Source: a virus. Taken from it: DNA of 37,168 bases. The DNA lies in IMG/VR virus record IMGVR_UViG_3300035180_002116, positions 1 to 37,168 of that record. One strand, 5' to 3'. Within the stretch, counting starts at the first letter, position 1; every line of letters starts with the position of its first letter. The notes beneath the pieces were generated by a model. That model worked only from the letters and a program-made list of their open reading frames with translations, was not told where the DNA came from and did not search any database. Of this stretch, positions 2,300 to 32,096 are shown piece after piece. A program made the position numbers and the translations under genes.

Positions 2300-3634
2300 A
2301 TGAGTATTAAAAATAAAGAAGTTAAGGAATACTTTACTCCTGAAGTCTTAGAAAAACAAGAACATCTTTCTAAGTTGATTTTATCTCAATTAGAGGTCAA
2401 TCCAAACTCTACAACTCAAGATTTATCTGATCGACCAATGGCTAATTTTATTCAGCTTATGGATTGGACTCAAGAAAAATTTTCACAGTATCTTAAAGAT
2501 ACTTCTGGTTTGAATAAATTTGTTCATAATAGAATCATTATAGATGGTCAGTTTTTACAATTTTGTCAAGAAAAACATGTAAAGGTAGAATGTCTTCATA
2601 AAGATTCATTTATATCTTGGAATACAGATCATAATTTTGAAAAATTCTTTGTTCAAGGTGTTTTTCTAATTAAAACCAAAGGATTAGAGTTTTTACACGC
2701 GGCCCTTTTTCATAAGGGAAATCAAAATGAAGATGAAATAAGTTTCTTCGTTATTGTATCTAAAAACAATTATGAAGCTTATCTCAGCCTTCGAAACGAT
2801 TTTGATGCTTGGGTTCAAGAAAGAGATAGAAGTAATCTTCACATAAGAGTTATTGATGGAGAAGATATTCCATACACGAAAGATTCGTCATGGGATGAAT
2901 TATTTCTTCCAGAAGATATTAAGACTGAATTAAAGGATCTTGTAGAGAGCTTTCTGGCTTCACAAGAATTCTATAAGGAATCTAAGATTCCATGGAAACG
3001 TGGAGTTTTGTTATTTGGTCAGCCAGGTAATGGAAAAACATCTATTATACGAACAATAGTGTCAGAGTATAATTTTAAGCCAGTAACATTTGTTCCTGGA
3101 GCTAATGCTGATGCATTGCGTGAAACATTTTACTATGCCGAAGAACAAAGCCCATCTCTTTTGTATATAGAAGATTTAGATTCCCTAATTGAAAATGGAT
3201 TAGATATTTCTACCTTTCTTAATTTATTAGATGGAATTTCGGCCAAAAATGGTTTATTAGTAATTGCTACAGCTAATGATGTTAGAAAATTAAAATCAAA
3301 TATTACACGTAGACCTTCTAGATTTGATAGAAAATTTGAAATTCCTCTACCAAATCAAGAAATGGCTTATATATATCTTAAGAGATGGTTTGGCAATATA
3401 ATTGACGTTAAAAAATGTCGAGAACTTGCTAAACTTGCTGTTAAACATGAATTATCTTATGCTTACTTAAAAGATTTGTATGTATCTTCAGTGTTCGAAG
3501 CTTTGGCTCATAAGCGAAAAACTCCAACAGTTAAGGATATAGACAATACATTGATTAGGTTAGTTAAAGATAAAAACATACTTAACAATGGTAATACGAT
3601 TAATACGGACAAATATTTTAAAAACGAAAGTTAA
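2300..3634 (+). CDS. AAA+ ATPase, BCS1/FtsH-like ATPase domain
   Basis: This 444-residue protein has about 230 N-terminal residues of unrecognised sequence and then one AAA+ module. Walker A is GQPGNGKT (240-247), Walker B with the catalytic acidic pair is LLYIEDLD (287-294), sensor-1 Asn is in ATAND (323-327), and the arginine-finger region RRPSRFDRKFEIPLP starts near 337. The SRFDRKFEIPLP wording is typical of classical AAA proteins (BCS1, FtsH, proteasomal ATPases) that unfold or remodel proteins in hexameric rings. No transmembrane segment or peptidase domain is present. The phage also carries a stand-alone M41 peptidase (19058-19726) without an ATPase, so a split FtsH-like pair is conceivable but is inference only. 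The substrate is unknown. Confidence 0.85.
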   Translation: MSIKNKEVKEYFTPEVLEKQEHLSKLILSQLEVNPNSTTQDLSDRPMANFIQLMDWTQEKFSQYLKDTSGLNKFVHNRIIIDGQFLQFCQEKHVKVECLHKDSFISWNTDHNFEKFFVQGVFLIKTKGLEFLHAALFHKGNQNEDEISFFVIVSKNNYEAYLSLRNDFDAWVQERDRSNLHIRVIDGEDIPYTKDSSWDELFLPEDIKTELKDLVESFLASQEFYKESKIPWKRGVLLFGQPGNGKTSIIRTIVSEYNFKPVTFVPGANADALRETFYYAEEQSPSLLYIEDLDSLIENGLDISTFLNLLDGISAKNGLLVIATANDVRKLKSNITRRPSRFDRKFEIPLPNQEMAYIYLKRWFGNIIDVKKCRELAKLAVKHELSYAYLKDLYVSSVFEALAHKRKTPTVKDIDNTLIRLVKDKNILNNGNTINTDKYFKNES

Positions 3635-5618: not shown

Positions 5619-6329
5619 ATGAGTTCGAAAAAATTTCGGGTAATAGTGGCCGACTGCCCATGGCCCTTTAAAGATACTTTAAAAATGTCCGATGTGCCGC
5701 GTGGGGCCGAAGCCAATTACAGCGTCATGACAATGAAAGATATTCGTGAGCTTCCTATAAAAAAGCACCTGCACCCTGATGGTAGCATTCTTGCATTATG
5801 GGTACCATCATCTTTATTACAAGAAGGTCTTGATACAATGAAAGCTTGGGGATTTTCATACAAGCAGGCGTATGTATGGGTAAAAGTTAAAAAAGAACCA
5901 TTAACATTTTTCAAAAAAGCTATTTTGAAAATGCAAAAATCTGCTCAAGTATCTTATGATAAATTTTCTTATATGAGAATGATAAAATCTATTGCTGATG
6001 CATGCGTGCCAGTAGGATTAGATTTGGTAAATACATTGTCATTTGGAATGGGTCGTCTTTTTAGACAAACTCATGAAATTTGCTTAATAGGTACTAGCAA
6101 TAATAAAATATATAAAAGCTTGAAGAATAAGTCACAGCGCTCAGTTAGTTTTGGACAAAATCTAAAGCATTCAGCTAAGCCAGAACATCTTCAAAACTCT
6201 TTGGAAATCATGTTTCCAAAGTCTCAAAAATTAGAACTTTTTGCCAGAAGATTACGTCCAGGTTGGACTTGTCTTGGTAATGAGGTTTGCAATGGTGAAG
6301 ATATTAGGGACTCACTTAGCAAACTATAA
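5619..6329 (+). CDS. MT-A70-type adenine-N6 methyltransferase
   Basis: The 236-residue protein matches the MT-A70 family, which transfers methyl from S-adenosylmethionine to adenine N6 in DNA or RNA. Visible landmarks are the catalytic-type motif ADCPW (residues 11-15), the family's usual SILALWVPSS segment, RQTHEICLIG, and the end pattern KLELFARRLRPGWTCLGNEV. The canonical catalytic tetrapeptide is DPPW; here it is DCPW, an unusual substitution that keeps the Asp and the Pro-Trp pair. A likely role is modifying phage DNA against host restriction, with no cognate nuclease beside it. The first ~170 bases of the gene are visibly richer in G+C than its second half and its neighbours, which hints at separate acquisition. 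Confidence 0.88.
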   Translation: MSSKKFRVIVADCPWPFKDTLKMSDVPRGAEANYSVMTMKDIRELPIKKHLHPDGSILALWVPSSLLQEGLDTMKAWGFSYKQAYVWVKVKKEPLTFFKKAILKMQKSAQVSYDKFSYMRMIKSIADACVPVGLDLVNTLSFGMGRLFRQTHEICLIGTSNNKIYKSLKNKSQRSVSFGQNLKHSAKPEHLQNSLEIMFPKSQKLELFARRLRPGWTCLGNEVCNGEDIRDSLSKL

Positions 6330-6369
6330 ATAACACATCACTTGACATTTGAATTTGGAGGATTATGGT
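6325..6369 (+). promoter_or_regulatory. Candidate promoters for the ribbon-helix-helix gene
   Basis: Two promoter-like signals lie in this gap. TATAAATA at 6325-6332 is an exact match to the T4-type late promoter core and overlaps the upstream stop codon. TTGACA at 6342-6347 is a perfect sigma-70 -35 box, with TATGGT (6364-6369) 16 bases downstream matching four of six -10 positions. Either could drive the regulator gene and the endonuclease genes behind it. Which one is real cannot be told from sequence. Confidence 0.35.
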
Positions 6370-6397
6370 GTATTTATGCAAGCATTTCTATCAATAA
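6365..6397 (+). CDS. Possible 10-codon leader peptide
   Basis: ATG 6365 (or GTG 6368) opens a minute frame, MVYLCKHFYQ, that ends at TAA 6395-6397. A strong ribosome site, GGAGG (6357-6361), lies three bases before ATG and six before GTG. The GTG spacing is the normal one. The peptide stops four bases before the palindromic operator candidate and thus sits between promoter and regulator gene, where a leader could couple translation to control. It may equally be a chance run; a 10-codon frame has no statistical weight by itself. Confidence 0.2.
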   Translation: MVYLCKHFYQ

Positions 6398-6400
6398 AGT

Positions 6401-6417
6401 GATATACATTGTATATC
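6401..6417. promoter_or_regulatory. Perfect 17-bp palindrome, candidate operator of the ribbon-helix-helix regulator
   Basis: GATATACA (6401-6408), a central T (6409) and TGTATATC (6410-6417) form a perfect inverted repeat. It abuts the Shine-Dalgarno GGAG (6418-6421) of the regulator gene at 6427. Ribbon-helix-helix repressors typically bind short inverted or tandem repeats and often control their own gene. The position would let a bound protein block transcription elongation or, as RNA, hide the ribosome site. I saw no second copy elsewhere in the window. Confidence 0.5.
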
Positions 6418-6426
6418 GGAGCATTA

Positions 6427-6861
6427 ATGTTAGTACCTAAATTATTGAGAATTGACGATACGACAATTCAAGAAATTGAAGAGTTGGCGCGAAAAATGTC
6501 AGAAAAAGAATATATTTCATTTTCCTCTCTAGTTAGAACATTAATCAGAAAAGGATTAGATAATAGGACTAAATCAATAATTAATTCAGAGCAAGTTAAG
6601 AAGGCAGTACATGATGTCGTAGATAAGGCACTAGAAGAGTGTGCTTATCAACAAGAAGCGCATGGAAAACCATATGAAGGTTTTGATGAATCAAAATCAA
6701 TGGGCTTGTTAGAGCCTACTGCCGAAATGAAAACAGTTTCTGAATCAAAACCAACACAAGTTAAAATAACGGTTGAGTTTTTCTTTGGAGAAGAAACTCA
6801 TACTAATAAACGTGGTAAATTAGTTTGCATACCAGTGGTTGACTTAACAAATATCAAATGA
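6427..6861 (+). CDS. Ribbon-helix-helix (CopG/Arc-type) DNA-binding regulator
   Basis: ATG 6427 has GGAG five bases upstream; a TTG at 6409 in the same frame lies inside the palindrome and is a poorer start. The product has 144 residues. Residues ~4-50 fit a ribbon-helix-helix fold: the strand PKLLRIDD, then helix IQEIEELARKM and helix SFSSLVRTLIRKGL. Proteins of this fold dimerise and bind operator DNA through the paired beta strands. The remaining ~95 residues are an unrecognised domain with a predicted helix (KKAVHDVVDKALEE) and a C-terminal beta-rich part (TQVKITVEFFFG), so it is longer than a minimal CopG protein. The stop overlaps the next start by four bases (ATGA). Autoregulation through the adjacent palindrome is an inference. 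Confidence 0.7.
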   Translation: MLVPKLLRIDDTTIQEIEELARKMSEKEYISFSSLVRTLIRKGLDNRTKSIINSEQVKKAVHDVVDKALEECAYQQEAHGKPYEGFDESKSMGLLEPTAEMKTVSESKPTQVKITVEFFFGEETHTNKRGKLVCIPVVDLTNIK

Positions 6862-7163
6862 AGATTTGTTCTAAATGCCATTCAAGTTCAAAATATTTAC
6901 CTTACACAATTCAAGAATTAAAGGAACATCTTGAATTTCAGTTTGAGCCGTGGATGACCTGTGACAATCAAGGCAAATACGACTCTCAAACTTGTGATGA
7001 TAATGATCAAACGACATGGATTTGGAATATAGACCATATTGTTCCACAATCAAAATTAACCTACACCTCTTTGGATGAGTATAATTTCCAAAAAGCATGG
7101 GCGTTAAATAATTTACGCCCATTACCTGCTAAACAAAATTTACTAAATGGTAATAGAAGATGA
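6858..7163 (+). CDS. Small HNH endonuclease
   Basis: This 101-residue protein carries an N-terminal Cys pair (Cys4, Cys7), another possible pair (Cys35, Cys46), and the HNH core WNIDHIVPQSK with Asp59-His60, followed by ALNNLRPLPAKQN. It has the normal size for compact phage HNH enzymes, which usually nick or cut DNA and often home into neighbouring genes. It overlaps the regulator gene before it and the second HNH gene after it by four bases each, so the three are translationally coupled. It is a close paralogue of the fragment at 1-156, suggesting that the family has spread within this genome. Confidence 0.82.
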   Translation: MKICSKCHSSSKYLPYTIQELKEHLEFQFEPWMTCDNQGKYDSQTCDDNDQTTWIWNIDHIVPQSKLTYTSLDEYNFQKAWALNNLRPLPAKQNLLNGNRR

Positions 7164-7672
7164 GTAAGAAAACGTTATTACTTAATGCAAGTTACGAAGT
7201 CCTGTCATTTATACCTGAGCGCAAAGTCTTTAAACTATTGTTCAAGGACAAAGTTGAAGTCATTTCATCTTGGGATGATTATTTTACTTGGGGTAACGGT
7301 AAAGTAAAGCACCCTTCTATTTTGAGATTGAAGACGCACGTTCGTCGAAATTACTTCAACTCTAACTTTAGCCGTAAAGCTCTTGTTAAAAGGGATAGAA
7401 GCACTTGTCAATACTGTGGCAAAAAGCTTACCGCATCTCAAATTACAATTGATCACGTGTTGCCACGTGCCCAAGGCGGAATTACGTCATTCATTAACTG
7501 TGTAGTCTGTTGCCAAATTTGCAATAACAAAAAAGCAGATAGAACTCCAGAGCAAGCTGCCATGGTTTTATTAAAGAAACCAACTCATCCATCTTTCTCT
7601 GCCAATTATTATGTGGCAGACCCACAAGAATATTGGCACGCCGACTGGGACGATTTCTTAGGTAGTAATTAA
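7160..7672 (+). CDS. HNH endonuclease (McrA/HNH type with zinc-binding cysteines)
   Basis: The 170-residue protein matches a widespread stand-alone HNH family. The core is RDRSTCQYCGKKL (Cys83, Cys86), TIDHVLPRAQGG (Asp98-His99) and CQICNNKKADRTP (Cys118, Cys121, Asn122). The N-terminal ~65 residues (NASYEVLSFIPERKVFKLLF) are the usual lead-in of this family. It should bind zinc through the four cysteines and cleave DNA with the Asp-His pair. It is a different HNH subfamily from the gene directly before it, with which it overlaps by four bases, so two unrelated HNH types sit in tandem. No neighbour looks like a restriction partner; homing or recombination roles are possible. Confidence 0.9.
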   Translation: MSKKTLLLNASYEVLSFIPERKVFKLLFKDKVEVISSWDDYFTWGNGKVKHPSILRLKTHVRRNYFNSNFSRKALVKRDRSTCQYCGKKLTASQITIDHVLPRAQGGITSFINCVVCCQICNNKKADRTPEQAAMVLLKKPTHPSFSANYYVADPQEYWHADWDDFLGSN

Positions 7673-8289: not shown

Positions 8290-8823
8290 ATGATTATTAT
8301 TAATGATGATGCGGCTTTACGAGTAAAGTGTGAAGATGTTTTACCCAACGAAGTTGGCGAATTAATTCGTGTTTTAGAGATCGAATTAGATTATGCCAAC
8401 CAATTGGGTAAAGGTGGAATTGGTTTAGCCGCTCCACAAATTGGTATTGCTAAAAATATCGCTATTGTCAGACTGGGAAGTAAAGGCAATGATATTAATT
8501 TAGTTAATTGCAAATTAAATAAAGGATATGACCCAGCCCCATTTAAAAGTGAGGGCTGTTTATCTTTTCCTGGTAGAGTTGAAGATACTATAAGATATCA
8601 AGAAATACATGTCACAAATAATTTGGTATATCCTAATGATTTTATTGCAACTGGATTAATTGCTGTTGTTTGTCAGCATGAACTTGATCATCTTAATTCT
8701 ACTTTATTTATGGATCGTAAAGAGCCTAAAATAGAGACAGTGATCAATAAAAGAAAAATTGGCCCAAATGATCCGTGCATTTGTGGATCAGGCAAAAAAT
8801 ATAAAAAGTGCTGTAGGACATAA
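8290..8823 (+). CDS. def: Peptide deformylase with C-terminal SEC-C zinc motif
   Basis: The protein removes the formyl group from the N-terminal Met of new polypeptides. All three deformylase motifs are present: GIGLAAPQIG (43-52), EGCLSFPG (88-95, metal ligand Cys90) and QHELDHL (129-135, His130, Glu131, His134). The catalytic domain ends near 145. A SEC-C motif then follows at about 157-175, PNDPCICGSGKKYKKCC, with Cys163, Cys165, Cys174 and Cys175. SEC-C is best known from the SecA tail and some methionine aminopeptidases, where it helps docking on ribosomes or partner proteins. Phage deformylases are known from marine phages; I recall most as lacking this tail. It fits with the phage bS21 and trigger factor as an enzyme working at the ribosome exit. 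Confidence 0.96.
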   Translation: MIIINDDAALRVKCEDVLPNEVGELIRVLEIELDYANQLGKGGIGLAAPQIGIAKNIAIVRLGSKGNDINLVNCKLNKGYDPAPFKSEGCLSFPGRVEDTIRYQEIHVTNNLVYPNDFIATGLIAVVCQHELDHLNSTLFMDRKEPKIETVINKRKIGPNDPCICGSGKKYKKCCRT

Positions 8824-15328: not shown

Positions 15329-16315
15329 ATGGCAGTTATAAGTATTACTATAGTAGAGTCAGAAACACAAATAGTATCAGGTATTCCTAAAACTGTTTCT
15401 ATTTCGACTAATATTCCAGCTTCAATTTTTTATACTTTAGATGGTAGTACCCCTTCCCTATTCTCTACGATGTATACTAGCCCGGTATTTTTGCCAATAG
15501 ATGCCCTTAGCGTAACTTTAAACATTATGGCGACTAATGGGGTAGATACCTCACCAATCATTAGTGAAACATACATTACAAATATGGCAGAGGGTACTAA
15601 CGCCAGACTCCCTCGATCTTCAACAGATGCGGCAGCTGGATCAAATATTCCAGGTCTATACCCTTTTGGAACTAATCCAATTCAACCTAATGCTGATTTC
15701 ATAAATCCTGCTGATGCTGGAATTACAGTAGATAACCCTGCACTACCAGCAACATCTACCGGATTTGATGGTGCTGGTAATCCAGTTGGTTTTACCAACC
15801 AAACTTATGATAGTACTAACTATAGTATTAGATATTCTACTACTGACGCTGAAGGTCAAGTTGGATTAGGAATCGGAAATTTGCCAGCTACAGCTACGAT
15901 TAAACAAGAGATTCCAGCTCCAGAATTTACTAATCAAAATAGTAATATGTTCGATCCACGTGCTTTCGTTATTTTTCAAGATGCATCTACTGAAAATCCC
16001 GATGATCCGCCACACATTAATAGAATGCATTTCTCATTAGAAAATCCTGAAAAAGCTAGAGATGGTAATGCATTTTTTACCAGTGGGTTAGATGCCCCGC
16101 CAGTTAGTGGTACTTTTTTAAGGTCTCACTATAATCCCAGAACTAATAATATCACTTATTATTATTTAGATACATGGACTAATCGTTGGATTATTTCTAC
16201 TATGCCATATAGACCAAATACTAATTGGGATGGAAATTTATCTGTAATGGCTCCTGGTAGAAACAGTCGTTTTGTGTTTGAATGGCAAAACTTCCCACGT
16301 AGAGTTTTATTCTAA
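15329..16315 (+). CDS. Putative virion structural protein with chitobiase-like N-terminal domain (328 aa)
   Basis: The first ~85 residues resemble the small beta-sandwich found at the C-terminus of chitobiase/beta-hexosaminidase and in phage structural proteins, with the landmark IFYTLDGSTPS followed by MYTSPVFLP. The middle is rich in Asn, Pro, Gly and Thr with no charged clusters, as in tail or head decoration proteins. The end carries Trp/Tyr-rich strands (NNITYYYLDTWTNRWIIS and FVFEWQNFPRR). There is no signal peptide. The start follows the previous stop by a single base. The placement amid DNA metabolism genes is unusual for a virion protein, so the assignment is only moderately sure. 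Confidence 0.6.
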   Translation: MAVISITIVESETQIVSGIPKTVSISTNIPASIFYTLDGSTPSLFSTMYTSPVFLPIDALSVTLNIMATNGVDTSPIISETYITNMAEGTNARLPRSSTDAAAGSNIPGLYPFGTNPIQPNADFINPADAGITVDNPALPATSTGFDGAGNPVGFTNQTYDSTNYSIRYSTTDAEGQVGLGIGNLPATATIKQEIPAPEFTNQNSNMFDPRAFVIFQDASTENPDDPPHINRMHFSLENPEKARDGNAFFTSGLDAPPVSGTFLRSHYNPRTNNITYYYLDTWTNRWIISTMPYRPNTNWDGNLSVMAPGRNSRFVFEWQNFPRRVLF

Positions 16316-16390: not shown

Positions 16391-17179
16391 ATGACGGACA
16401 CAGACTTTCGCGTCTCTGTTAGTAAAACGAAGACTTTTGCCCAGTGCATGAAGCAGTACGAATTTAATTATATTCTGAAATTCCCCAAAAAGGAAAGAGA
16501 CTATCATACTTTTGGAAAATTCTGTCACATGGTTTTGGAAGAATTTCACAAAATGTATATTGAAGGATGTTTACTTCCTTATAATATTGTTATGGGAGAT
16601 TGTTTCAAAAAAGCAATGACCGAATACAAAGATAAAATGACTCCAGAGATGAAGAAAGAGTGTTGGGGATTAATTGATAAGTATTTACGCAAAATTTCAA
16701 ATGAAAAAAATAATGGCACGCCAGCCAACGTAATTTCCATAGAAAAAAGATTTGAGTTGCCAGTCGGCGAAAACATTATATTAAACGGAGCCATTGACAG
16801 AATTCAGGTTGATGACGATAATGTTATCCACGTAGCCGACTATAAAACTACGAAAAATAAAAAATATCTCAAGGATGATTGGTTTCAGTTATTAACGTAT
16901 GCATATGTTATATGCTCAGAAGATTCAAGTATTACTAAAGTAAGAGCATCTTATATTCTTTTAAGACATGATTTCGAGTACATTACTACAGAGTTTACGT
17001 TAAAAGATATTCTGCCTATTAAAGATAAATACATTGATTACGTTAATAAAATGCGTACTGTAAAAGATTTTACAGCATCACCAAGCGCTTTGTGTAATTA
17101 CTGTGATTTTCTTAATGACTGCCCTGAAGGTAAAGCAAAATCATATAATCAAAATATATATGGTGAAGTTAAATGGTAA
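16391..17179 (+). CDS. Cas4/RecB-like PD-(D/E)XK exonuclease with probable Fe-S cluster
   Basis: The 262-residue protein carries the RecB-type nuclease motifs: FGKFCHMVLEE with His46, LNGAIDRIQVDD with Asp136, and VADYKTTK with Asp150 and Lys152, then the QLLTYAY helix. Cys19 together with Cys235, Cys238 and Cys244 (CNYCDFLNDC) gives the four-cysteine pattern of the Cas4/AddB 4Fe-4S nucleases. Such phage enzymes are thought to process DNA ends in recombination. No CRISPR array or cas1/cas2 is in the window, so an adaptation role is not supported. An A+T-rich 75-base gap precedes it and trigger factor follows nine bases later. Confidence 0.9.
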   Translation: MTDTDFRVSVSKTKTFAQCMKQYEFNYILKFPKKERDYHTFGKFCHMVLEEFHKMYIEGCLLPYNIVMGDCFKKAMTEYKDKMTPEMKKECWGLIDKYLRKISNEKNNGTPANVISIEKRFELPVGENIILNGAIDRIQVDDDNVIHVADYKTTKNKKYLKDDWFQLLTYAYVICSEDSSITKVRASYILLRHDFEYITTEFTLKDILPIKDKYIDYVNKMRTVKDFTASPSALCNYCDFLNDCPEGKAKSYNQNIYGEVKW

Positions 17180-17188
17180 GAGGAAAAA

Positions 17189-18436
17189 ATGCAAATTGAA
17201 GTTAAAGAAATTGAACCATGCAAATTATTAGTGCAGTACACTGCTGACGCTATGGAAATTATGAATAAAAGGGGCGAGGTCCTCAATGCTTTCAAGAAGG
17301 CTCCCGTTCCAGGATTTCGTCCAGGAAAATCTTCCTTGGATGCCATTAAAGTTCATTATAAAGATCAAATTGAAGATGCTTTAAAACGTTCTCTAGCTGA
17401 AGATGCATACCATAATACTTTATTCGAAAAGAAGATTAAGCCACATGGTGCTCCCAGATTTAACACACTTATGTTAGCAGATGGAAAATTTACTTGTGAT
17501 TTTGAGGTGCATACTAAGCCAGATTTTGAGTTATCTCCATTTTTAGGCTTAGAGATTCCAAAGCCTCATGAATCTCAAACTGCATTAGAGCTTACTGAAC
17601 AATTAATGCAAGAATTACGAGTTCGTTTTGGTGAGGTTGTTCCTTATGCTGAAAACGATTTTGTTCAAACAGGTGATAACGTAATTATTGATTATGAAGG
17701 GTTTCTAGGAGAAGAAAAAATTGAACAGTTATGTGTAACTGGCGATATGATGACCGTTGGTATTAGTAAATTACCAGCGTTTGATTCTAATATTCTAGGA
17801 ATGTCACTTGGTGAAACTCGCGAGTTTGATATCGTAATTCCAGAAAATGGTTTACAGTCTCTTGCTGGTAAAACAATTAAATTAAAAGTAACTCTTACTA
17901 TGGGATCTAAAACTACTCCATGTCCATTGGATGATAGTTTGGCTCAAAAAATAGGCAAAAAAGACTTAACTGAATTAAGAACTTTTGCACAAGGAACAGC
18001 TACGGCTACTTTACAAAATAAAGAAAAACAAGTCATCAATGAGCAAATTGCTCATAAATTAGTTGATGCTAATGTAATTGCTGTGCCTAATTGGATGACT
18101 TTATCTGAGGCTCAATATGTGGTACATAGTGCTAAATTAGATTGGGATCTTCTATCTGATGAAGATAAAAAGCAATACTTAGATATTGCAGAAAAAAATG
18201 TAAAATTATCTCTTATCTTAGATAAAGTAAGAGAATTAAACCCAGAAGCCCAATTAACTGATCAAGAAGTATTTGATGTTATTAAGCATAATTTAGCTAA
18301 AACTCAAGTAGATAAACCAATAGATGAAGTAATACAACAAATGAATAAGAGCGGATATTTGCAAATTTTATTCTCTAGAATTAGAGATGAACATGCAATG
18401 GATTTTATAGCAAAAAATGTAAAGATTGTTGAATAA
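17189..18436 (+). CDS. tig: Trigger factor (ribosome-associated chaperone and prolyl isomerase)
   Basis: The 415-residue product is near the bacterial length (E. coli 432) and keeps all three parts. The N-terminal ribosome-docking domain contains the signature PGFRPGKSS (41-49). The middle FKBP-like region (DFVQTGDNVIIDYEGFLGEE, GMSLGETREFDI) would be the prolyl isomerase. The helical C-terminal domain cradles the nascent chain. AGAGGAAAAA lies before ATG. Trigger factor is normally a host protein binding at the exit tunnel, and a full copy in a phage is rare. With bS21, deformylase-SEC-C and DnaJ it forms a nascent-chain set. Whether it replaces, supplements or redirects the host protein cannot be told. 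Confidence 0.95.
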   Translation: MQIEVKEIEPCKLLVQYTADAMEIMNKRGEVLNAFKKAPVPGFRPGKSSLDAIKVHYKDQIEDALKRSLAEDAYHNTLFEKKIKPHGAPRFNTLMLADGKFTCDFEVHTKPDFELSPFLGLEIPKPHESQTALELTEQLMQELRVRFGEVVPYAENDFVQTGDNVIIDYEGFLGEEKIEQLCVTGDMMTVGISKLPAFDSNILGMSLGETREFDIVIPENGLQSLAGKTIKLKVTLTMGSKTTPCPLDDSLAQKIGKKDLTELRTFAQGTATATLQNKEKQVINEQIAHKLVDANVIAVPNWMTLSEAQYVVHSAKLDWDLLSDEDKKQYLDIAEKNVKLSLILDKVRELNPEAQLTDQEVFDVIKHNLAKTQVDKPIDEVIQQMNKSGYLQILFSRIRDEHAMDFIAKNVKIVE

Positions 18437-18447
18437 GGAGATTTAAA

Positions 18448-18762
18448 ATGAGTAAGAAAGATGGATCTGTTCCGGTTTCGTTTCCAGAAAAATGGGAAAA
18501 AGTTATTGCAAAACTTCCTGAATTTAAAGATACTGCTGACGCATCAAGTGTCGAAGATCTTAAAAAGATAGTAGTGCAGTGTGAGGGAAACATCTATTCT
18601 CTTGACCAAGAGAAAGATGCTGACGTTAAATTAAATGGTGCTAAAGAATTAGTTAAAGAATATTCTGAACCATATCGTGATGCTATTAAAGTACAAACAG
18701 CTAAAGTTAAATATGCATTATTCCTTCTAGAAGGTAAAGGCGTAGACTTAGATAACAAATAA
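18448..18762 (+). CDS. Hypothetical phage protein (104 aa)
   Basis: The protein is mostly helical and charged. The second half (KLNGAKELVKEYSEPYRDAI, KVQTAKVKYALFLLEGKG) resembles a pattern I associate with small conserved proteins of large myoviruses, but I cannot name a domain. AAGGAG lies before the start, 12 bases after trigger factor. It is probably co-translated with its neighbours. Confidence 0.75.
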   Translation: MSKKDGSVPVSFPEKWEKVIAKLPEFKDTADASSVEDLKKIVVQCEGNIYSLDQEKDADVKLNGAKELVKEYSEPYRDAIKVQTAKVKYALFLLEGKGVDLDNK

Positions 18763-18769
18763 AGGAAAA

Positions 18770-19054
18770 ATGAAGGTAGAAAGATTTACAATACAAGCTT
18801 GCTGCGGAAGAACATCTATTATTTTTAAAACCAATTGTCCGCTAAGTATGCAACATCTTTCATCTTTAGTTAAATTAGGGTTTACGGAATATCCACATTT
18901 TACTCAAGCTGGAATATTATATGTGGATAATCCGGACTTTATTTTGAATGGGCCGTTAGGATCTGATAGACTAACCGTCAAATGCAAGCACAAAGAAGCT
19001 GAATGCGCCCAAAAGATTAATAATTTGGAGGGTTTACTTCAGCAGTTGGGGTAA
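18770..19054 (+). CDS. Hypothetical phage protein (94 aa)
   Basis: The family is not recognised. The sequence is a small alpha/beta protein, with the strand VERFTIQACCGRTSIIFKT, a central helix (MQHLSSLVKLGF), strands near AGILYVDNPDFILNGP, and a C-terminal helix. Two adjacent Cys and two more (Cys67, Cys73) are present but form no standard zinc motif. AAAGGAAAA precedes ATG. It lies three bases before the M41 peptidase gene. Confidence 0.72.
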   Translation: MKVERFTIQACCGRTSIIFKTNCPLSMQHLSSLVKLGFTEYPHFTQAGILYVDNPDFILNGPLGSDRLTVKCKHKEAECAQKINNLEGLLQQLG

Positions 19055-19057
19055 ACT

Positions 19058-19726
19058 ATGGCCAGTAATAATGCAGGATCCATTGGAAATATTAGAAAAA
19101 AGTTCCATAATACTCATGAGTTGATTTCAACGGCTTATCATGAGGCAGGTCATACTGTTTATGGATTGCTTCATAATATGAATATTGAATCAGTTTTAGT
19201 ATTTGCGGACAAAAAAACTAAGAGAATCAATGGGTTTACTCATTACCACCCTTCAGATTTAGTCCAAATTCAAGATCCAGAATTGTTAAATGATCGATTA
19301 CATGCCGAAATTTGTTTATCTTATGCTGGCCTAGTTTCTGAGAAGAGATATTTCAAAATGATTTCTGGCTCAGATAAGCTGCCGATGTTTTTAAGAGAAG
19401 GATCTTCTAATGATCTTTCTGAAGCGGCAGGGCTATTTGAAAAATACAATTTATCAGAACCTGGTCATAAACGTTATAATTACAAACAAAAACTAATAAA
19501 GCAAATAGATCTTGAATTACAAGAGAACTGGATAGCTATTACTGTGATAGCTCACGCTCTTTTCAAAAAGAAAAGACTTTCATTTATCGAAATAAAAGAT
19601 TTGTTAATTAGAAAAGCTGGCAACAAAGAATTTTGGAAAAAACAATTTAAGATATTAGACCAATTGTATGGCAATGCCGAGCCACTTGACGAAAAAAACA
19701 TAAAATCTATATTGTATCAAGCGTAA
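19058..19726 (+). CDS. Stand-alone M41 (FtsH-type) zinc metallopeptidase
   Basis: The protein contains AYHEAGHTVYG, the HExxH zinc site of peptidase family M41 (His28, Glu29, His32). About 90 residues on lies REGSSNDLSEA, whose Asp119 fits the third zinc ligand seen in FtsH (usually in a Gly-Ala-x-x-Asp-Leu segment). The surrounding helices fit the FtsH peptidase domain. FtsH itself is ~640 residues with two membrane spans and an AAA+ ATPase; this 222-residue protein has neither. It could work with the phage AAA+ protein at 2300-3634 or with host ATPases, or be a regulator or decoy. It follows the unknown gene by three bases. Confidence 0.85.
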   Translation: MASNNAGSIGNIRKKFHNTHELISTAYHEAGHTVYGLLHNMNIESVLVFADKKTKRINGFTHYHPSDLVQIQDPELLNDRLHAEICLSYAGLVSEKRYFKMISGSDKLPMFLREGSSNDLSEAAGLFEKYNLSEPGHKRYNYKQKLIKQIDLELQENWIAITVIAHALFKKKRLSFIEIKDLLIRKAGNKEFWKKQFKILDQLYGNAEPLDEKNIKSILYQA

Positions 19727-19760: not shown

Positions 19761-19820
19761 TAATCTATTTTTAGATTATAGTGCTCTGTTAATATGAGCC
19801 TGTTATGAAATTTGTCATAA
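19761..19820. promoter_or_regulatory. Two inverted repeats upstream of dnaE
   Basis: In the 117-base gap before dnaE, TAATCTA (19761-19767) and TAGATTA (19772-19778) form a perfect 7-bp inverted repeat with a TTTT loop. TTATGA (19803-19808) and TCATAA (19815-19820) form a 6-bp repeat with a six-base loop. Both are short and A+T-rich, and neither has a following T run. They may be protein-binding sites or mRNA hairpins that set DnaE level. The second covers an alternative in-frame ATG at 19805. Confidence 0.35.
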
Positions 19821-19843
19821 TACCCAACCTAAAGGAAAGAAAC

Positions 19844-22800
19844 ATGACTGATTTCGTTTCATTACATAATCAAACTGATTATTCTATTCTGGATTCTATT
19901 ATTTCTCCCAAAGCTCTTTTTAACAAAGCTAAAGAGCTTGGACAGTCAGCAATCGCAATTACTGACCACGGAACATTAGCAGCAGCCTGGGATTCATTAA
20001 AAGCTTCTCGGGAAACTGGCGTAAAACTTATTATGGGATGCGAATGTTATTTCGTAGATGATGCTAGTAATACTGCCGAAAAATTTCGTCATGTTGTGCT
20101 TCTAGCCAAGAATGCTATTGGTTATCGTAATTTATTGACCTTAAATAAAAGGGGATTTGATCAAGGCGCATTTTTTGGCAAGAGAGTCTATCCAATTATT
20201 GATTGGAAGTTATTAGCTCAATATGCTGATGGACTTATTTGCCTAACTGCATGCGGTAATGGTATCGTTAGCCAATTATTAATGAATAAAAAGTTTGATG
20301 AAGCTGACCAAACACTACTTCGTTTAAAAATGATGTTTGGAGATAATTTAGGAATTGAAGTACAGCCTAATAATATGAAGCGCGGCTCTAATATTTATAA
20401 TGATGAGATTGATCAACAATTTATCAATCGTAAATTAATTGATTTGGGTAAAGCTCATGGCATCAAAATTGTACCTGCATGTAATGCCCACTATCTTACT
20501 AAAGAAGAACACTCTACACATGATGTGTTATTAGCCATTGGCTCTCATCAACCAGTTTATTCAAATTATAGACTGAAGTATAATGTTCCTGATTTTTATC
20601 TCAAGACCGGTGAAGAGGTTAAAAGCTTTTTTGCCAGAAATTATGGTGAAGATTTTGCTAATGAAATTTGTGCAAATAGCGTCCATTTCTCAAACTTGTG
20701 TGAAGTTCCTGATTGGATTGACCCGAAATTCTCCAATCCTTCTGGAAAAGAGCTTCCTGCATTTCCTGTCAAAGATGAGCCCGACTATGCAGCTTTCCGT
20801 GATTGGGTTAATTCTCAAGATGGTGAAACCCAAAAATTAGATGAAGATAAGTTATTTCTTCGTTTTAGATGTAATAAAGTTTTTGATACTAGAATCAAAG
20901 GTTTAAATGAATCTAATATTGAACAATATAAAAATCGTTTGATTGAAGAGCTTGATGTTATTGAGTTTCATGGTTTTTCCAGCTATATGCTAATTGTGGC
21001 TGATTTTATTGATTGGGCTAGAAATAATGATATTGCTGTTGGTGATGGTCGAGGTTCAGTCGGTGGTTCTTTGATTGGATTCTTGTTAGGAATTCATCAA
21101 GCAGATCCTGTCAAATATAATCTTATTTTTGCTCGATTTCATAATAAAGAAAAATCAAGCTTTCCAGATATTGATACAGACTTTGCTCCATCCGGTCGAA
21201 CGCGCGTGCAGGAGTATTTGCGTAAAAAATATGGAGAAGATCATGTTGCCCATGTATCTAACGTAAATACTATTACACCAAAAGTTTATGTTAGAGATAT
21301 TGCACGTGCCTGTGAATTGGGCGGATCTAAAGAAGAAGCAGTTAAGATTGGTACTGATGTAGCAGATTGCATTCCTGCTGATATTCATTCTATTACCGAT
21401 GCTTTAGCTAAAGTACCTTTGTTTGCAGAGTATTGCAAAAGATATCCTGAATTCGAAAAATATAAAGATATCTGTGGAAAATATCGTGCTTGGTCTACAC
21501 ATGCAGGCGGTATTATTATTTCGGCTCGTCCATTGACTGGTCTAGTTCCTTTAAGAAAGGATAAAGATGGCGCTTTGGCAATTGAATATGATAAGGACAA
21601 AGCCGAAGAAAATGGTTTAGTAAAAATGGATACTCTTGGTTTATCCACTCTAGACATTATAGGTGAAACATATAAAATAATAAAAGAACGTGGTAAAGAA
21701 TTACCGCCTGATGTTCTAGATTATGATAATTATGATAAGGAATCTTATGACCTTATTACCAGCGGAGATACATTTTGTGTATTTCAATTAGGAACTAGTG
21801 CGGGTACTATTGATTTATGTCGTCGTATCAAACCTGCAACCATTAACGATTTAGCAAATATTAACGCTTTGGCTAGACCATCAGCACGAGATATGAGATC
21901 CGATTTTATTAAAACTCGTAATGGTGAAAAACCAATGACACTTTTGCATCCTAATTTAGGTCGTGCTTTCAATAGCACATATGGGTTTGGATTATATGAA
22001 GAGTGTCTAATGTATTTGGCGCAAGATGTTGCCGGATGGAGTTTGCATTCAGCAGACCGTTTGCGTAAGCTAACTAAAGAAAAAGGCAAAAATCCTAAAA
22101 AAGCACAACAGTGGAGAACTGAATTTATTAATGATGCAGTTAAAAATAATGTACAAGAAGAAATTGCTAAACGTATTTGGGATGAAGTTGTAGATAAATT
22201 TCAGGGTTACGGATTCAACGTTTCTCACGCCGTCCTTTATTCTATGACTGGATTTAAGACAGCTTATCTTAAAGCTCATTATCCAATTGAATTTCTTTTA
22301 GCTAATTTAATGGCTGAAGTTAAATCCAATTCTCCAGATGCTCGGAGTAATATTGAAAAGATTAAAAAGGAACTTAGAAAACGTAAGGTAAAGATATTAC
22401 CACCAGATATAAATGCATCACAGCTAACTTATACTATTTCTGATGGTAATAAATTACTTACTGGATTAGATGCTTTGAAGCTAGTTGGAGATGATGCTAT
22501 AAAAGATATTATCGAAAAGAGACCTTTTAAGAGTTTCTTTGATTTTATGGTTAGAGTTGATTCTAAAAAGGTAAGAGCAAATAGTATTCAAGCTCTTGCA
22601 GCAACTGGGGCTATGGATTCATTTAAGATTCCAAGAAAAGTAATTTATTTGTATTGTTCAGATTATCGTAAAAAATTACAAGTATGGTTGAAAAAACACG
22701 ATCCTTCTAAAGAAGAGTTCGTGTATCCATGGCCATCAGAGACAGATTGGAAATTATCGGAATTATATGCTCTTGAGCAATGGTATATGGGCGAATCTTT

Positions 22801-23362
22801 TACTTGTAAGCCAGCTGATGCTTATGGTAATTTCTTTAAAGATAAACATGTGACAGTGTATGAAATTAAAAAATCTCAAGATAAAACTAGACTAAATCCT
22901 ATCAAAGCAATTGTTAGAGATTTTTTTGAATTCAAAGTTAAAAAAGAGACTAGTAAATATTATGGTCAATCTATGATCAAAGCAATGATTGAAGACAAGA
23001 ATGGAGATCAGTGCTCTTGTACTATATTTCCAGATAGATGGAAGCAAGTGCAAGAACGTATTAAATATGTGAATAGTAAAGCTGAATTTGATACAGGTAT
23101 AGCTTTAAGCTTTTCAGGAAATGTTAATACTTACGAGGATGATGTTGGCGCTATCTTGGATAATTTATATGACGTTTCGACTATACCTGCTCTTCCAAGC
23201 GATTTAAAGGCTAAAAAGATCAATTTGAAGGAAGCTAAAGCAAAATCTAAGGAAAATGACCCTACGGAGCCTACCGTTGAAAAGACTTTATTTGAAGAAA
23301 TTCAGGACACGTTATATGATGAGGGACTAATAGATTTGGATGAAGATGAATCAGACGATTGA
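19844..23362 (+). CDS. dnaE: DNA polymerase III alpha subunit (replicative polymerase)
   Basis: ATG 19844 is chosen because AAAGGAAAG lies nine bases upstream and the product then begins MTDFVSLHNQTDYS, the usual DnaE start. The length (1172) is close to E. coli DnaE (1160). The order of parts is a PHP domain (ending motif AITDHGTL), the C-family core with GRGSVGGSLIGFLLG and FPDIDTDF (Asp442, Asp444), STHAGGIIIS, and an OB-fold region near 1000 (INPIKAIVRD-like), ending in an acidic tail. The PHP metal motif His-x-His reads His8-Asn-Gln10, so the PHP nuclease site is probably inactive. A bacterial C-family polymerase instead of a T4- or T7-type one is unusual in phages. No separate epsilon exonuclease or clamp is in the window. 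Confidence 0.97.
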   Translation: MTDFVSLHNQTDYSILDSIISPKALFNKAKELGQSAIAITDHGTLAAAWDSLKASRETGVKLIMGCECYFVDDASNTAEKFRHVVLLAKNAIGYRNLLTLNKRGFDQGAFFGKRVYPIIDWKLLAQYADGLICLTACGNGIVSQLLMNKKFDEADQTLLRLKMMFGDNLGIEVQPNNMKRGSNIYNDEIDQQFINRKLIDLGKAHGIKIVPACNAHYLTKEEHSTHDVLLAIGSHQPVYSNYRLKYNVPDFYLKTGEEVKSFFARNYGEDFANEICANSVHFSNLCEVPDWIDPKFSNPSGKELPAFPVKDEPDYAAFRDWVNSQDGETQKLDEDKLFLRFRCNKVFDTRIKGLNESNIEQYKNRLIEELDVIEFHGFSSYMLIVADFIDWARNNDIAVGDGRGSVGGSLIGFLLGIHQADPVKYNLIFARFHNKEKSSFPDIDTDFAPSGRTRVQEYLRKKYGEDHVAHVSNVNTITPKVYVRDIARACELGGSKEEAVKIGTDVADCIPADIHSITDALAKVPLFAEYCKRYPEFEKYKDICGKYRAWSTHAGGIIISARPLTGLVPLRKDKDGALAIEYDKDKAEENGLVKMDTLGLSTLDIIGETYKIIKERGKELPPDVLDYDNYDKESYDLITSGDTFCVFQLGTSAGTIDLCRRIKPATINDLANINALARPSARDMRSDFIKTRNGEKPMTLLHPNLGRAFNSTYGFGLYEECLMYLAQDVAGWSLHSADRLRKLTKEKGKNPKKAQQWRTEFINDAVKNNVQEEIAKRIWDEVVDKFQGYGFNVSHAVLYSMTGFKTAYLKAHYPIEFLLANLMAEVKSNSPDARSNIEKIKKELRKRKVKILPPDINASQLTYTISDGNKLLTGLDALKLVGDDAIKDIIEKRPFKSFFDFMVRVDSKKVRANSIQALAATGAMDSFKIPRKVIYLYCSDYRKKLQVWLKKHDPSKEEFVYPWPSETDWKLSELYALEQWYMGESFTCKPADAYGNFFKDKHVTVYEIKKSQDKTRLNPIKAIVRDFFEFKVKKETSKYYGQSMIKAMIEDKNGDQCSCTIFPDRWKQVQERIKYVNSKAEFDTGIALSFSGNVNTYEDDVGAILDNLYDVSTIPALPSDLKAKKINLKEAKAKSKENDPTEPTVEKTLFEEIQDTLYDEGLIDLDEDESDD

Positions 23363-30619: not shown

Positions 30620-31170
30620 AAAGAGTCCTTGGTATAGATGTGTCCAGTACCACTATTGGGTATTGCGTTTTAGAAATAGATGACAATAACAATATAAAAT
30701 ATGTATCTTCTAATTATTTAAAGCCGGTTAAAACTGGGTCTATTATAGAAAGAATAGTAGATACAAGAAATAAAATTCAAGATATAATAAATAAGGTTAA
30801 ACCAGATTATATTGGCATTGAAGATATTATTCAATTTATGCAAGGTAAAAGTACTGCTAAGACAATTATTATGCTTACTACTTTTAATAGAATGATTGGG
30901 TTATGCGCTCATGATTATCTAAATAAAGTTCCTGAGCTTTTCAGTGTTATGAGTATTAGGCACGGGTTGAAATTTGATAAAATTTTTCCAAAAAAAGAAG
31001 ATATGCCGGAGCTTGTCGCCAAACATTTAGGAATTACATTCCCTTATGAGTTGAATAAAAAGGGAAAAATAAAAGTGGAAAGTTATGACAAAGCTGATGG
31101 TGTTGCTGTCGCTTTATATTATGCTTTTATTTTGACCGGGAAAGTAAAGCCTAAAGGTAAGAAAAAATGA
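30616..31170 (+). CDS. ruvC: RuvC-like Holliday junction resolvase
   Basis: The 184-residue protein has the RNase H fold of RuvC. The acidic residues are Asp8 (RVLGIDVSSTTIGY), Glu69 (YIGIEDI) and Asp158/Asp161 (YDKADGVAVALYY). Length and motif spacing fit RuvC-type resolvases of phages; it lacks the T4 endonuclease VII design. It would cut four-way junctions left by the RecA/SbcCD pathway before packaging. The start overlaps the endonuclease gene and its end overlaps dnaJ by four bases each. Confidence 0.88.
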   Translation: MKRVLGIDVSSTTIGYCVLEIDDNNNIKYVSSNYLKPVKTGSIIERIVDTRNKIQDIINKVKPDYIGIEDIIQFMQGKSTAKTIIMLTTFNRMIGLCAHDYLNKVPELFSVMSIRHGLKFDKIFPKKEDMPELVAKHLGITFPYELNKKGKIKVESYDKADGVAVALYYAFILTGKVKPKGKKK

Positions 31171-32096
31171 ATTTGAAGGAAGCCTACTCAATCTTAGAAA
31201 TACCAGCAACCTCTACACCGGAGGAGGCTAAGAAAAAGTATCGCGAACTTACGAAAAAGTGGCATCCAGATATTAACAAAGAATCTGGTGCCGAAGAAAA
31301 ATTCAAAAAAATAAATGAAGCCTATCAAGTAGTATCATCTGGTAAAGGATCTGACCGAGAAGATAGAGTTTCTCAGCATGTATATAATCCATTTGGACAG
31401 CAAATAGTTTATGAGGCTGAAAATATATCACTATCTGCCACAGTATCTTTTGCAGAATCTGTATTAGGTTGTAAGAAAGAAATAAAGTTTAACCGTAAAA
31501 CAAAATGTAAAGATTGTAATGGCCAAGGTGAATTTGCCATAAACAATGGCTGTGATAAATGCGGTGGTAAGGGACAAATTACTAATCGTAATGCAAATAT
31601 GATTTTTGTTCAAACTTGCGATAAATGTTTTGGTAAAGTAGAAATCAAATCATGTTCAACATGTAATGGTGAAGGCGCAGTTCAATCTGAAGTATCCATG
31701 AGTGTTTCAGTTCCTGGTGGCGTACAAGATGATAATATACTTCGTTTAGGTGGTGTTGGAAATTTTGTAGGATCCTGGGGCCCAATAGATCAGCACACAG
31801 ACGTACATCTACGCATACGGGTGATTTCAGAACCCGGTTTAAGATTAGAAGGTAATAATGTAGTTTCTGATTTATCCATTTCTCTATTAGAAGCTTTAAC
31901 TGGGTGCAAAAAAACAGTTAAAACTATTGTAGGTGATAAGTCAGTGGATATAGTTCCTAAGTCTAGAAATAAAGATGAGATTATAATTTCACATCTAGGA
32001 GTTAACCGTGTGGGAAATCATATGGTTATTTTAGATATACAATATCCAGAAGATGTTAGCAATTTAGTTAACATATTAACTAATAAGGATAATTAA
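31167..32096 (+). CDS. dnaJ: DnaJ-type (Hsp40) co-chaperone with zinc-finger domain
   Basis: The 309-residue protein begins with a J domain (EAYSILEIPATSTPEEAKKK, HPD at 33-35) that stimulates DnaK ATPase. The Gly/Phe-rich linker is missing or very short. The zinc domain has four Cys pairs: C114/117, C129/132, C151/154 and C163/166. The third reads CDKCFGKVE instead of CxxCxGxG, a partial decay. Two substrate-binding beta domains follow (SVSVPGGVQDDNILRLGG). DnaJ is ~376 residues; the shortfall is the linker and a C-terminal dimer region. With no phage DnaK in the window, it should use host DnaK. Confidence 0.93.
   Translation: MNLKEAYSILEIPATSTPEEAKKKYRELTKKWHPDINKESGAEEKFKKINEAYQVVSSGKGSDREDRVSQHVYNPFGQQIVYEAENISLSATVSFAESVLGCKKEIKFNRKTKCKDCNGQGEFAINNGCDKCGGKGQITNRNANMIFVQTCDKCFGKVEIKSCSTCNGEGAVQSEVSMSVSVPGGVQDDNILRLGGVGNFVGSWGPIDQHTDVHLRIRVISEPGLRLEGNNVVSDLSISLLEALTGCKKTVKTIVGDKSVDIVPKSRNKDEIIISHLGVNRVGNHMVILDIQYPEDVSNLVNILTNKDN

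Follow-up and report, generated by a model that had tools for sequence, protein, structure and literature searches.

A trigger factor gene with a conserved ribosome-docking loop and a mostly lost isomerase pocket in a lineage of huge phages

Trigger factor (TF) is a bacterial chaperone stationed at the ribosome exit. In this study, we report a TF gene in the window, the 37,168-base stretch of DNA that was analysed and that constitutes the entire virus record, and describe its relatives in dozens of contigs from huge, uncultured phages, where TF occupies one and the same slot. Profile matches and a predicted structure confirm the reading frame as a real three-domain trigger factor. The docking loop is kept and the prolyl isomerase (PPIase) pocket is mostly lost, which suggests that newly made phage proteins are probably taken care of by the viruses themselves. 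The reading that we prefer, at a probability of roughly 0.6, is that the pocket-decayed TF would dock on uL23 and, as a holdase, receive the nascent proteins of the phage, in line with a peptide deformylase (PDF) and a DnaJ of the phage itself.

Table 1. Features of the window that bear on the TF gene
Feature	Position	Strand	Basis or remark
TF gene	17189..18436	+	ATG start, 415 aa; Pfam, TIGR00115, AlphaFold2, structure matches
AAGAGG, Shine-Dalgarno-like ribosome-binding site	17178..17183	+	5 nt ahead of TF start; sequence read directly
N-terminal ribosome-docking domain, residues 1-114	17189..17530	+	Pfam Trigger_N; model Z 13.5, 2.1 A over 114 residues to E. coli docking domain (1oms_B)
Docking loop GFRPGK, residues 42-47	17312..17329	+	motif conserved across phage TFs
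PPIase (FKBP-like) domain, residues 154-246	17648..17926	+	fold kept, pocket residues lost
C-terminal chaperone domain, helical arms, residues 247-415	17927..18433	+	Pfam Trigger_C; AlphaFold2 model
PDF with C-terminal SEC-C zinc motif	8290..8823	+	PF01327 1.3e-24, PF02810 1.5e-8
PD-(D/E)XK nuclease, upstream slot marker	16391..17179	+	PF12705 4e-27; synteny
Two small genes, function unassigned	18448-18762, 18770-19054	+	follow TF in 32/32 close relatives
Stand-alone FtsH-type M41 metallopeptidase	19058..19726	+	PF01434 7.5e-7, just below cut-off
DNA polymerase III alpha (PolIII alpha, DnaE-like), downstream marker, TF-blind probe	19805..23362	+	phrog_405 2e-243
DnaJ: HPD motif, zinc centre, DnaJ_C	31167..32096	+	profile matches

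The original prediction of a full-length TF in a phage was confirmed (Table 1). Pfam assigned Trigger_N to residues 1-139 (2.6e-19), a partial FKBP_C to residues 158-219 (3.3e-4) and Trigger_C to residues 260-408 (3.8e-10), and the order N / PPIase-like / C that is required of a trigger factor was found by Pfam, in the model and in the structure match. The TIGR00115 equivalog profile was passed with 185.4 bits against a cut-off of 180.2. An AlphaFold2 model built from an alignment of 44 relatives had a mean pLDDT of 86.2, and its best PDB match was E. coli TF 1w26 (Foldseek E 8.5e-23; Z 20.1 over 402 residues). The PPIase domain of the model adopts an FKBP-like fold (Z 11-12, 1.5-2.3 A over 83-90 residues). 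The whole-length rmsd is high, 10 A, and was attributed to freedom of the inter-domain hinge because the single domains superpose well. The putative ribosome-binding site overlaps the stop codon (17177-17179) of the nuclease gene upstream. The further claim that three domains and the GFRPGK signature are retained stood for the domains, the fold and the docking loop, and does not extend to the catalytic pocket of the PPIase domain.

A protein-level scan of IMG/VR found 15 contigs that carry a full-length TF relative at 57-73% identity, and a subsequent profile scan raised their number to 32. With a mixed phage and bacterial profile, the family was continuous from 73% down to 32%, with three further members at 22-24% (L220-L222); one contig, in which host-like DNA adjoins a prophage, was set aside from this list. 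Over this whole range of identity, 73% to 22%, the relatives (L220-L222 among them) occupy the slot formed by the PD-(D/E)XK nuclease, TF and PolIII alpha, and TF is full length in all close relatives. The gene order is PDF, Trx, SbcD, SbcC, dNMP kinase, a 328-aa protein, the nuclease and TF, continuing with two small genes, the M41 peptidase, PolIII alpha and RecA; both flanks of TF were syntenic in 32/32 related contigs that had been seeded with TF. In the window, the neighbours of TF are the nuclease upstream and PolIII after three small genes, not clpP-clpX, and the locus is thus not of the bacterial tig type. TF-bearing contigs reach 481 kb; one of them encodes a large terminase subunit (phrog_675, 1.9e-61) ~28 kb downstream of TF, and others have weaker terminase matches at a similar distance. 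This confirms that the owner of the gene is a phage. The closest named relatives of that terminase are only ~25% identical, and a PolIII of at least 60% identity was found in none of the named phages of the collection.

Several further features of this neighbourhood were recorded. The conserved 328-aa protein (window 15329-16315), which contains a 'IPASIFYTLDGSTPSLFS' stretch and in almost every relative is encoded by the second gene upstream of TF, had no PHROG match. FtsH-like functions are split between an AAA ATPase (window 2300-3634) and the M41 metallopeptidase ~15 kb away, the latter with HEAGH and SND present and no ATPase domain of its own; in the distant phages (L210 onwards), no M41 match was found beside TF. 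HNH endonuclease genes, likely mobile homing genes, occur at varying points near TF in L009, L014, L019, L020 and L022. PolIII alpha is interrupted or lengthened in L234 (10730 region), L169, L026, L160 and L161, and in L234 an intein-like end (DIVAHNC) lies within PolIII.

The presence of TF was also assessed on contigs seeded by the polymerase and not by TF. Thirty-five contigs had a polymerase 59-86% identical to that of the window, and TF was present on all 34 that cover the slot; the remaining contig (L146) begins inside the M41 gene, i.e. after the slot. A polymerase seed of the L220-L222 type returned 13 contigs at 38% identity or more, with TF on 12 of the 12 covering the slot, the thirteenth (L229) starting at the polymerase. 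In one of these 12, L227, TF is split into two overlapping frames (6112-7470), by either a frameshift or a sequencing error. No TF was detected within the flanks fetched for 67 contigs with a polymerase of 32% identity or less, although the slot may lie beyond the end of some of the shorter ones. TF and polymerase distances were correlated over 56 contigs (r = 0.97) and among the 39 closest contigs (r = 0.80), and in neither case did any of 2000 permutations reach the observed value. dN/dS between related TF copies was 0.05-0.19, to be read as well below 1 since several pairs come close to saturation in dS. The presence in TF-blind sets, the co-divergence and the dN/dS values together indicate vertical inheritance under constraint, and we conclude from these comparisons of sequences that phage TF is a core gene of long standing, passed on vertically under purifying selection.

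The claim that this TF is not a host gene copy also held for the genes found: when 84,980 species were scanned with a close pattern, none had a bacterial gene of that type, and a broader scan returned 80 TFs from bacteria, chiefly Bacillota and Pseudomonadota, with identities of 22-31%. A maximum-likelihood tree of 88 rows placed phage and bacterial TFs on opposite sides of one branch (support 91/89), and the stem of the main phage clade (100/100) measured 1.15 changes per column, the position of an old phage lineage and not of a recent copy. When the distant L231 and L234 were added, support for the branch uniting all phage TFs dropped to 36/11, with the remaining 28 phage rows grouping at 90/72; in these two contigs, TF directly precedes PolIII, with DnaJ and RecA behind PolIII. 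A single old capture appears to fit these trees best, and TF may later have been replaced in the L231 branch. The donor cannot be named because the stem of the main clade is too long and because the bacterial sampling was mostly of Bacillota and Pseudomonadota, with no Bacteroidota, Chloroflexota, Cyanobacteria or CPR. A recently captured host tig gene, or chimeric assembly at its borders, has practically no probability left; nothing was found in favour of either, and they are refuted by the flanks conserved in 32/32 contigs, the low identity to bacterial TFs, the tree and the co-divergence with PolIII.

Among named phages, INPHARED yielded 22 TF matches, all weak, and of eight records opened most had clpP and/or clpX beside tig, which identifies such 'phage' records as bacterial contigs; two of the eight had neither gene within the short stretch fetched. 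Examples labelled as phage that are contigs of bacterial chromosomes are CAKLQH020000005.1, OR844993.1 and MT837294.1. PHROG 26774, an unnamed family of unknown function, matches the window TF and appears to be trigger factor; bacterial tig matches it better (5e-71), so that this family may rest on host DNA. The BFVD viral structure library gave no match to the TF model at E <= 0.001.

Docking loop and isomerase pocket have fared differently in the phage proteins. In E. coli numbering, and with loop alignments that are approximate at ~24% identity, the 48 TFs of the main phage clade keep G43 and R45 in 48/48, F44 and G47 in 47/48 and K48 in 45/48. Eight early-branching phage TFs likewise keep GFRxG, and in the window the GFRxGK signature lies within a docking-domain fold, as in trigger factor. 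Y221 was found in 0/48 main-clade phage TFs compared with 83/87 bacterial ones, and F177 in 4/48 compared with 83/87; the GG in the loop that comes next is mostly replaced, F185 has become Glu in 41/48, and F198 and F233 are mostly retained. The active-site residues (F177, F185, I195 and Y221) are those which we take to be such from E. coli TF and FKBP12. The PPIase domain is the most diverged domain relative to bacteria, with an identity to E. coli TF of 0.24 in phages vs 0.46 in bacteria; for the docking loop region these values are 0.29 vs 0.40. Many C-domain positions are invariant among phage TFs. The FKBP-type fold is thus present without the active-site residues, and, judged by sequence, the label of an active prolyl isomerase fails for main-clade phage TF. 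Nearly the whole pocket is retained in L220, L226, L228 and L233, and it is lost in L231 and L234 too. The pocket was also decayed in a control, L053, a genuine bacterial tig-clpP-clpX locus; the loss is therefore not specific to phages and, taken alone, is no sign of a special function. E. coli TF with mutations in FRK44-46 does not bind the ribosome, and the PPIase activity of TF is dispensable for its function in vivo.

Two other genes of the window would act on the same newborn proteins. The PDF, which has all three motifs (GIGLAAPQ, EGCLS and HELDH), was present in 10/10 records of a first set and 15/16 of a wider set with its catalytic motifs kept, and almost all close relatives have a SEC-C-type zinc motif at the end of this protein. 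The motif could serve to anchor PDF at the ribosome; no paper in the literature searched links PDF with SEC-C. A DnaJ C-terminal domain was found in 16/16 contigs. DnaK was found in 0/16 and GroEL in 0/12 long contigs, with positive controls in both cases and from records that are possibly incomplete.

From these observations we infer for phage TF ribosome binding, a client preference, isomerase inactivity and cooperation with PDF and DnaJ. Through its GFRxGK loop, the protein would dock uL23 of the host 50S subunit and cover the exit tunnel, either replacing the host TF or beside it, and it would receive nascent phage chains as an isomerase-dead holdase. The phage PDF would process N-termini at the same exit site before this reception. 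Because the phage brings no DnaK, its DnaJ would hand the chains on to host DnaK, and with PDF, TF and DnaJ present but DnaK absent, the phage would rely on the Hsp70 of its host. The complete reception line at the host ribosome, with PDF held by SEC-C, an isomerase-dead TF on uL23 and DnaJ enlisting host DnaK, is a tentative extension, to which we give about one chance in three. If true, the virus would refit the exit site of the host with factors that have been passed down, and tuned, in its own lineage.

TF also acts off the ribosome, and the phage protein might instead be an assembly chaperone for replication or virion proteins. Its position in a replication block, near the nuclease, PolIII, SbcCD and RecA genes, is in keeping with such a role. 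However, GFRxG is nearly invariant in TFs that share only ~20-25% of their residues, which points to ribosome docking, and since the docking loop is the best-kept part we regard an off-ribosome role as unlikely. The loop could also be kept for stability. Slightly less likely still is a decoy, an isomerase-less TF that occupies uL23, excludes host TF (and SRP or SecA) and damps the maturation of host proteins to the benefit of the phage. Retention of the loop together with loss of the pocket would be expected of it, but a decoy would need only the N-domain, whereas these phages keep the whole chaperone cradle, with invariant C-domain positions and strong purifying selection. The conserved cradle makes a decoy less likely, and a phage that also encodes DnaJ and a PDF with all its motifs is better described by service; conservation, PDF and DnaJ together favour a role in service rather than that of a pure decoy. 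The pocket loss and the frame-split copy in L227 could be taken as signs of a relic, in which the TF fold lost its function along with the pocket and has drifted since, but the dN/dS range largely refutes this, as do the full length in all close relatives and the presence of TF wherever the slot is covered, and it is very improbable. Reception of nascent phage chains at the host ribosome remains the reading to which we hold.

It is known that huge phages supply components of translation, and an exit-tunnel chaperone among these was not reported in the literature searched. The main text of the huge-phage survey names PDF, and neither trigger factor nor nascent-chain chaperones were found named there. 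No phage TF was described in the open-licence literature searched, a scope outside which supplementary tables and subscription papers fall; the only mention of trigger factor there, apart from unrelated papers, was as a solubility tag, and it is possible that phage TF has been annotated elsewhere without a name. That TF has stayed in the core while the lineage diverged deeply (identity down to ~38% for the polymerase and ~22% for TF) would make control over the reception of nascent chains a basic need of these viruses. Loss of the pocket in only some phage subclades, with docking kept, provides a natural comparative set for the purpose of the isomerase domain.

Compared with bacterial TF (tig; TIGR00115; 1w26), the phage protein has the same domain order, whole-length fold and GFRxGK loop and a similar length (415 vs 432 aa), but only ~20-30% identity and, in the main phage clade, no intact pocket. 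Phage TF adjoins phage nuclease and PolIII genes, whereas bacterial tig adjoins clpP-clpX. The chloroplast TFs TIG1 and Tig2 are likewise diverged, organellar and encoded by eukaryotes (PMC5587573, PMC11731035). The TIG1 structure 7zgi matches the phage TF model (Z 17.2), whereas Tig2 consists of the N-domain only (PMC5587573, PMC11731035) and phage TF is full length. Ribosome-linked factors already described from phages are PDF (cyanophage; huge phages), bS21, L7/L12 and IF1/IF3 (PMC7162821, PMC9723584), and phage TF, judged by its sequence, would be like them a gene acting at or near the host ribosome.
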